Shown here piece after piece: positions 12,833 through 64,000 of a stretch of 64,000 nt of DNA. A model generated the notes under the pieces. That model had not been told where the DNA came from. It did no database searches and worked only from the letters and a program-made list of their open reading frames with translations. Both the position numbers and the translations under genes were made by a program. Numbering within the stretch: position 1 is the first letter of the stretch; each line of letters begins with the position of its first letter. Location: assembly GCA_947427095.1 (NCBI GenBank), contig CANEGO010000003.1:62001-126000 (forward strand), read 5' to 3'. Source of the DNA: an uncultured Clostridium sp. (lineage in GTDB: Bacteria > Bacillota_I > Bacilli_A > RF39 > UBA660).

Positions 12833-12870
12833 GGTTCTTAGAGTCCCTTTTATTTTCCACAAAAAGACAC

Positions 12871-12901
12871 TTGACAACTGGGGGGGGGGCTGTGGTATTA
12901 T
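12871..12901 (+). promoter_or_regulatory. promoter with G10 homopolymer in the spacer (candidate phase-variable)
   Basis: TTGACA (12871-12876), G10 (12880-12889), TATTAT (12896-12901); spacer 19 bp. Confidence 0.7.
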
Positions 12902-12928
12902 ATACCCCATTAAAAGGGGTGTTTTTGT

Positions 12929-14068
12929 GTGGAAAACATAAGATTAGATAAATTAGAAGCAATTATTGATAGTATTAATGATAACATAAGGTATTATGAA
13001 AATGGGACATATGAAAATACGGGCTATGATATGTTCCTATCTAATGGCGATAGAATAAGGTTATTATATCCAAAAGAGGTTATTCCGCATCTTTTGGGAG
13101 TTAATGTACCATATCTTGTTTCGACAGGTTTATATAAATATAAAAATTATTTTGATATTCTAAAGGAGGTATGTTCTAATCCTTATCAGTTGTATCAAAA
13201 AATTAGTAAAGGAATAATATCGTATAATGATTTGTTTTCTAAATATGTTAATGAGAAAAATAGCATATTTAAAGCAAATTTATCTAATACTGTTCATTCA
13301 GTTAGTTACGTATGCAAATATGATAGTTCAAAAACTTTTGCATCTAGTGAAAATAGTTATAGTTCAGATTATTTTATTATAAGGGAACAAAACAATGGCG
13401 ATATTATAATATTAGGAATAGTTAAAGAAGAATCGGGAAATTATAAGCCGAGATCCAGTATATATATTCAAAACCCAGTACTTGAGGGTAGCCAATTATA
13501 TGATATTTTGCACAATCAAGAAATTTGCATCTTAACGAGGATTAATTCGTTAAATTATAATGGTGAGTTAAAAAAATATTTTAGTTATGTTCCACTTAGA
13601 ATTGAAAGAATCGAAGATTTAGAAAAGTATTGCAATAAATATGGATGTGTTGCATCAGTAAAAAAGGATTATTTAGAAGTTTTGAGATTATTTAGCAAAT
13701 CGCATAATAATAATGAAGTGATACAAGATGTTAATAAAAAAATTGCACAGATGATTAGAGAAGGCAGAATTATTACCGAAGAAGAAATGGAAACATCGAT
13801 GGACTGCTTATCGGATTCAATGATTGAACTGGTTAATTCATATAATGATTTAGTTACTGGTTCTTTGAATATTGATCATTCGAGTTATTCGGAGTTGCAA
13901 ACCGAAAATAAAGATTTAAGAGAAGAATTGTTGAGATTAAAAAGTGAAATAGATGAAGCTAATAGATTAATATTAACTTTAAAGGAAAATAATGAATCTT
14001 TAAAACTTCAAAATAAAAGGTATTCAGATGCTAAAATTGAAATAGAAAACATTTTATTAACCATCTAA
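12929..14068 (+). CDS. hypothetical protein, HLLG-type N-terminal domain (possibly PBECR4-like) with C-terminal coiled coil
   Basis: FLSNGDRIRLLYPKEVIPHLLGVNVPYLVSTGLYKYKNYFDIL resembles PBECR4-type segments from memory; the C-terminus is heptad-rich. Family assignment is tentative. Confidence 0.6.
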   Translation: MENIRLDKLEAIIDSINDNIRYYENGTYENTGYDMFLSNGDRIRLLYPKEVIPHLLGVNVPYLVSTGLYKYKNYFDILKEVCSNPYQLYQKISKGIISYNDLFSKYVNEKNSIFKANLSNTVHSVSYVCKYDSSKTFASSENSYSSDYFIIREQNNGDIIILGIVKEESGNYKPRSSIYIQNPVLEGSQLYDILHNQEICILTRINSLNYNGELKKYFSYVPLRIERIEDLEKYCNKYGCVASVKKDYLEVLRLFSKSHNNNEVIQDVNKKIAQMIREGRIITEEEMETSMDCLSDSMIELVNSYNDLVTGSLNIDHSSYSELQTENKDLREELLRLKSEIDEANRLILTLKENNESLKLQNKRYSDAKIEIENILLTI

Positions 14069-14094
14069 AAAGGACTTTAATAAGTCCTTTTTAG
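14067..14094 (+). terminator. intrinsic terminator
   Basis: AAAAAGGACTT TAAT AAGTCCTTTTT hairpin. Confidence 0.85.
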
Positions 14095-14125
14095 ATGATA
14101 TAATTTTAATTAAGGACGTGATTTA

Positions 14126-63508: not shown

Positions 63509-64000
63509 ATGAAAAAACAAAATATCGCTATAATTGGAGTAGTAGCTTTTATATTGGCGGTAGCAGTAGGTTATGCGTTATTTAGTGATACTTTAACAAT
63601 TAGTGGTACGGCAACGGCAAAAGGTGATTTTGATGTTGAATTTACTTCGGTAGGAGAAATAAAAAAAGTAGGTTATACAGAAACTAATGATAGCCATGGT
63701 GATGGTACAGAAGCTAATATTGCTGTAATAAGCGCTGATAAAAATACATTGACAATCACGGTAAATAAACTTGATTATCCAGGTGCTTACGTTGAAATTC
63801 CGGTTACAATAACTAATAAAGGTTCAATTCCTGCTAAATTAAAAAACATAAAGGAAACAAACGTAACTGGTGGTAATACAGTAACTAATAATACTGGTTC
63901 AATTGCTATTGATTCGCTAGATATAACTTATACTGGTGTAGCGGCAAGTGATGCAACCATTGATACTAATGCAACCCAGTCTATGATTATAACAGTAAAA
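63509..64000 (+). CDS. TasA/CalY-like secreted protein (3' truncated by window edge)
   Basis: MKKQNIAIIGVVAFILAVAVGYALFSDTLTISGTATAKGDFDVEFTSVG; frame open to base 64000; SD GAGAGGAG. Family inferred from the ALFSDTxTxSG signal region. Confidence 0.65.
   Translation, partial: MKKQNIAIIGVVAFILAVAVGYALFSDTLTISGTATAKGDFDVEFTSVGEIKKVGYTETNDSHGDGTEANIAVISADKNTLTITVNKLDYPGAYVEIPVTITNKGSIPAKLKNIKETNVTGGNTVTNNTGSIAIDSLDITYTGVAASDATIDTNATQSMIITVK

Follow-up and report, generated by a model that had tools for sequence, protein, structure and literature searches.

The G10 tract that separates the -35 and -10 elements of a promoter in the 64-kb window (the whole stretch of DNA analysed here) has counterparts throughout its source genome (G000, with contigs named C2, C3, C5 and so on), and these promoters very likely constitute a promoter-level phasome of about 20 loci in which slipped-strand events would vary the promoter spacer. 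A phase-variable promoter had been the original prediction, and comparison now supports it well, through the recurrence of the design, a changed spacer in the orthologue from genome G017, the 17-bp spacers of tract-free homologues, and differences in tract length.

The predicted architecture was found as described: TTGACA, G10 and TATTAT are in place with a 19-bp spacer between the two hexamers (Table 1), and the -10 is moreover extended by TGG. A TGN followed by TATTAT or TATAAT is the form common to most of the sibling poly-G promoters in the source genome. The prediction also held that no comparable G tract occurs elsewhere in the window, and indeed the G10 is its single G run of seven or more, the next longest being one G6 and two G5; a G8 pattern matched three times, all three matches overlapping inside the G10, against a mean of 0.14 in shuffled sequence. 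The ORF is, as had been proposed, closed by its own strong terminator. A GGGG/CCCC hairpin at 12902-12922, just 3' of the -10, was considered as an attenuator and rejected because its CCCC arm is missing in G017.

Table 1. Features of the poly-G promoter and its gene, in window coordinates
Feature	Position	Strand	Remarks
Upstream box, TTTTCCACA	12853..12861	+	Fits TTWTNCACA; 9 bp 5' of the -35
-35 hexamer, TTGACA	12871..12876	+	Read directly
G10 tract in promoter spacer	12880..12889	+	Proposed slippage site; also present (as G9) in the G017 orthologue
Extended -10, TGG + TATTAT	12893..12901	+	TATTAT itself is 12896-12901; read directly
Probable ribosome-binding site, AAAAGGGG	12912..12919	+	AAAAAAGGGG at the equivalent place in G017
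ORF	12929..14068	+	379 aa, GTG start
Intrinsic terminator	14062..14097	+	Strong; at the ORF end

Pattern searches of the source genome (1.28 Mb in 27 contigs, 93% complete) returned 22 G runs of at least seven, with lengths from 9 to 16 and no run of 7 or 8. All but one of these lie between a TTGAC and a -10 (TANNAT), directly 5' of a gene start, the sole exception being a promoterless G16 at the very end of contig C2. The promoters found at the ends of contigs C10 and C22 probably belong to a single locus, so that the 21 promoters represent about 20 loci. Their spacers measure 15 bp (three promoters), 16 bp (nine), 17 bp (three), 18 bp (two), 19 bp (two) and 20 bp (two). Since poly-G is known as an Illumina artefact, and since the G16 lacks a promoter and three contig ends fall at tracts, one might ask whether the tracts arose in sequencing or assembly. 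We regard this as extremely improbable: most tracts are internal to contigs and recur in this promoter setting across many independent genomes, the reversed pattern is almost absent, and the tract is conserved at the orthologous locus. Two further sites in the source genome are of note. A near-copy of the promoter of an RpoD-like sigma gene (C2:11332-11372) has TTGATT and only G6, and is apparently a decayed switch, and at C5:12988-13029 the box TTTTCCACA and a TTGAC are followed by GGAGGATGATATTAT, an arrangement that resembles a poly-G promoter minus its tract.

The most direct comparison is with the orthologue in G017, which is 75-76% identical and whose promoter reads TTGAC-G9-TTTATGTTATGAT; the tract is thus kept (G9 versus G10), with a spacer of 15 bp versus 19 bp. 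Five less closely related homologues of the window ORF (24-27% identity over the full alignment) have no long tract, one of them having a G5, and in all five the distance from TTGACN to the -10, read by eye, is 17 bp. The gene for the RpoD-like sigma factor provides a second series of this kind: it carries poly-G in the source genome (G10), G006 (G8), G008 (G10) and G010 (G8), and has no tract and a 17-bp spacer in G015, G004, G017 and G016. Taken together, the homologous promoters that lack a long tract have a spacer of exactly 17 bp in nine of nine cases (five from the ORF family, four from the sigma gene), which suggests that 17 bp may be the optimum for these promoters.

Differences in tract length are also found between near-identical copies. 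When promoters with identical flanks within one genome were grouped, tract length was unequal, by one or two Gs, in 15 of 20 groups among the matches listed; on one contig of G136, for instance, G9, G10 and G11 are all present. At a sibling locus in the source genome, contig C22 ends with G11 and 45 nt, and C10 has G10 followed by the identical 45 nt. These two contigs overlap by exactly 55 nt, and C10 and C6 likewise share exactly 55 nt, which is the overlap expected of a k=55 assembly branch with both G10 and G11 in the reads, at this sibling locus and not at that of the window. As a weaker alternative, the C10/C22 branch could stem from homopolymer sequencing error.

These comparisons bear on whether the tract might instead be a fixed promoter element, a G-rich spacer with a constant length that RNA polymerase or a regulator recognises, and not a switch. 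Among 85 promoters from other species of the genus, the tract is G9 in 50 and the spacer is 16 bp in 44 and 17 bp in 18, with the rest ranging from 13 to 21 bp; in G014, which has 32 poly-G promoters, the most found in the genus, 22 spacers are 16 bp. Such clustering is what a fixed element would produce, and, as the 16-bp majority outside the source genome is seen in several species, the tract may stay close to G9 instead of varying freely. Against a fixed element, however, stand the unequal tracts of identical-flank copies, the 15-20 bp range of spacers in the source genome, the 4-bp difference between the window and its G017 orthologue, and the 17-bp homologous promoters that do without a long tract. 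We therefore consider a fixed element very unlikely and favour slippage within the spacer.

In the mechanism that we propose, the G10 tract would act as a contingency element to which slipped-strand mispairing during replication would add Gs or from which it would remove them, and each change in G number would bring the -35 and the extended -10 closer together or move them further apart. A spacing of about 17 bp is favoured by RNA polymerase that carries the housekeeping sigma factor. A population would then contain strong and weak producers of the 379-aa protein, and the assembled 19-bp allele, two Gs over, is plausibly the weak state. That slippage is the cause, that living cells switch and that transcription responds are all inferred from such comparisons. 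As the -10 is extended, spacing could also act in a graded manner instead of on/off.

The proposed phasome would comprise genes of several kinds. Ten of the poly-G genes in the source genome encode secreted proteins with a near-constant leader (MNK.KG.IIGVLAL.VTMMVGYAIFS..ITINGTATAKGDF) and divergent bodies, and the remainder encode two lipoproteins, two members of the sigma-70 family, and six others that include the window ORF. Two of the ten shared-leader proteins were compared with Pfam and NCBIfam and gave no fitting family. A TasA/SipW-type identity for the ten was considered and set aside, as no such model matched the two that were scanned and the resemblance of the leader is one seen by eye only. 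Leader-family genes found elsewhere in the source genome lack poly-G, and from 63509-63892 of the window onward along contig C3, past the end of the window, four to five leader-family genes stand in tandem without poly-G promoters.

One of the two sigma-70 genes encodes an RpoD-like protein of 806 aa that has additional sequence at its C terminus; the product of the other is 1096 aa or longer and contains several sigma regions and TPR repeats. The presence of both under such tracts suggests that regulators switch, as well as surface proteins. The idea that a dedicated sigma factor reads all of the poly-G promoters was weakened by G014, where the 32 such promoters coexist with a single RpoD-like match, a 363-aa frame that is like the housekeeping factor.

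The window protein itself matched no family at a significant score in Pfam, NCBIfam or PHROGs, and seven homologues, counting itself, were found in 59 genomes searched, all in its genus. A structural model (mean pLDDT 74) has a mixed alpha/beta fold over the N-terminal two-thirds and a long C-terminal helix at residues 321-378, in support of the coiled coil that had been suggested. The accompanying suggestion of a PBECR4-like N-terminus found no support in the sequence: with a cut-off of E<=10, PF18813 matched nothing in the source genome but did match Lactococcus lactis, used as the control, and PBECR4 is also absent from the families listed for the seven homologues. A fold search of the model against the PDB gave no match at E<=0.001. 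In BFVD, it matched two unnamed phage proteins (E 1.5e-05 and 3.4e-05, 11-13% identity), from which we did not assign a function, the TM-scores over the query being just 0.32-0.33. Unlike most of the co-regulated set, the window protein has no apparent secretion signal.

A second shared element lies upstream of the -35. Of the 21 poly-G promoters of the source genome, 17 have the TTTTNCACA box (TTWTNCACA, with the TTTACACA variant also counted) 8-15 bp 5' of the -35, whereas of the 55 further TTGAC sites that the window contains just one has it (Fisher p ~3e-12); of the four promoters without it, two are cut by contig ends. Elsewhere in the genus it accompanies 27 of 38 poly-G promoters, usually at 13-15 bp from the -35, and among the matches listed only six of the remaining 101 poly-G promoters have it. 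Of the nine homologous promoters that lack a long tract, a box was seen in one (L034). This distribution would fit a composite switch in which tract length sets promoter strength and a protein bound at the box acts in addition, as NadR does at nadA. Such an arrangement, which would supplement slippage in the spacer and not replace it, is possible yet on balance doubtful, since the box may also be a UP-like element inherited with the promoter cassette and is missing from the RpoD-like sigma promoter of the source genome. The box resembles a DnaA box, and the naming of DnaA as its candidate binder is a guess from the consensus. In the source genome, four TTATCCACA sites fall within 4.4 kb (C2:112847-117251), denser than elsewhere in the genome, possibly at the replication origin.

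Carried further, the promoters might form one regulon governed by tract length, by a trans-acting protein bound at the box (possibly DnaA) and by phase-variable sigma factors as a heritable upper layer. We think this unlikely; if true, about 20 switches would give combinatorial states in a 1.3-Mb genome, and were DnaA the box binder, expression would be coupled to replication.

The distribution of promoters of this design was assessed by scanning for TTGACN{0,4}G7N{2,17}TANNAT, with the reversed pattern as a control and a G8 version for the rest of the class. Within the genus, the pattern is present in 13 of 18 species and the reversed control in none, and by our own count 90 of 93 G runs of at least nine are in promoter position. 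The family has matches in 51 of 291 genomes and 38 of 150 genera (reversed control, four matches in two genomes), and across the remainder of the class the G8 version matched four of ~300 genomes, with no control match in all 346. From 85,462 named genomes, the matches listed include Faecalibacterium, other Clostridia, Ca. Ancillula, Treponema ruminis and Helicobacter labacensis, and the flanks of these listed out-of-lineage matches differ from those of the source-genome type. Ca. Faecalibacterium gallistercoris carries a near-identical, multi-copy poly-G cassette with G8 in two copies and G10 in one (L075, L088, L117), and a similar promoter is found in An122, an isolate of the genus Faecalibacterium (L115). 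In G010, which is another species of the window's genus, the promoter and gene start are identical to a record from Candidatus Aphodocola excrementigallinarum (L118), which places the window in the genus of Ca. Aphodocola (Bacilli incertae sedis).

A 2025 review identifies why phasome-rich genomes seem restricted to pathogens as a major open question and suggests database bias as a possible cause (PMC11868660). Here, uncultured gut Bacilli with small genomes have promoter switches, as we read them, in numbers of about 20 for one species and over 30 for another, G014, and in the source genome the genes concerned are in large part those of secreted proteins whose leaders are conserved while their bodies diverge. 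As the pattern can be scored in public metagenome reads, the question of pathogen restriction becomes testable. In the open-access library searched, no paper was found that describes such phasomes of poly-G promoters, whether in gut Bacilli or in Aphodocola. The mechanism itself is already known; what appears to be new is the scale and the lineage, a genus-wide promoter phasome that would include sigma factors.

Three known systems come closest to the arrangement seen here. In the porA promoter of N. meningitidis, poly-G lies between the -35 and -10, the optimum is 17 bp, and transcription follows tract length (PMC7864442; van der Ende et al., 1995, the porA source cited by PMC5084427). The promoters described here are like that of porA in having a homopolymeric G tract in the spacer. 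In T. pallidum, according to the same source, several genes for surface proteins, tp0126 and tpr, have G tracts in their promoters; that of tp0126 is also located between the -35 and -10, with activity best at 17 bp (PMC7864442). T. pallidum belongs to another phylum, however, and the tprL tract overlaps the -10 and is not in the spacer; a conserved upstream box and sigma genes are not mentioned in the excerpted account (PMC7864442). In B. breve, also a gut commensal, G-tract slippage controls pilus surface structures (PMC9187656), with the tract in the gene interior and not, as here, in the promoter spacer. Whereas porA is one porin gene in a Gram-negative pathogen, the present set comprises about 20 promoters of one design in gut Bacilli, two of them on sigma factor genes, and most with an extended -10 and the TTTTNCACA box upstream.
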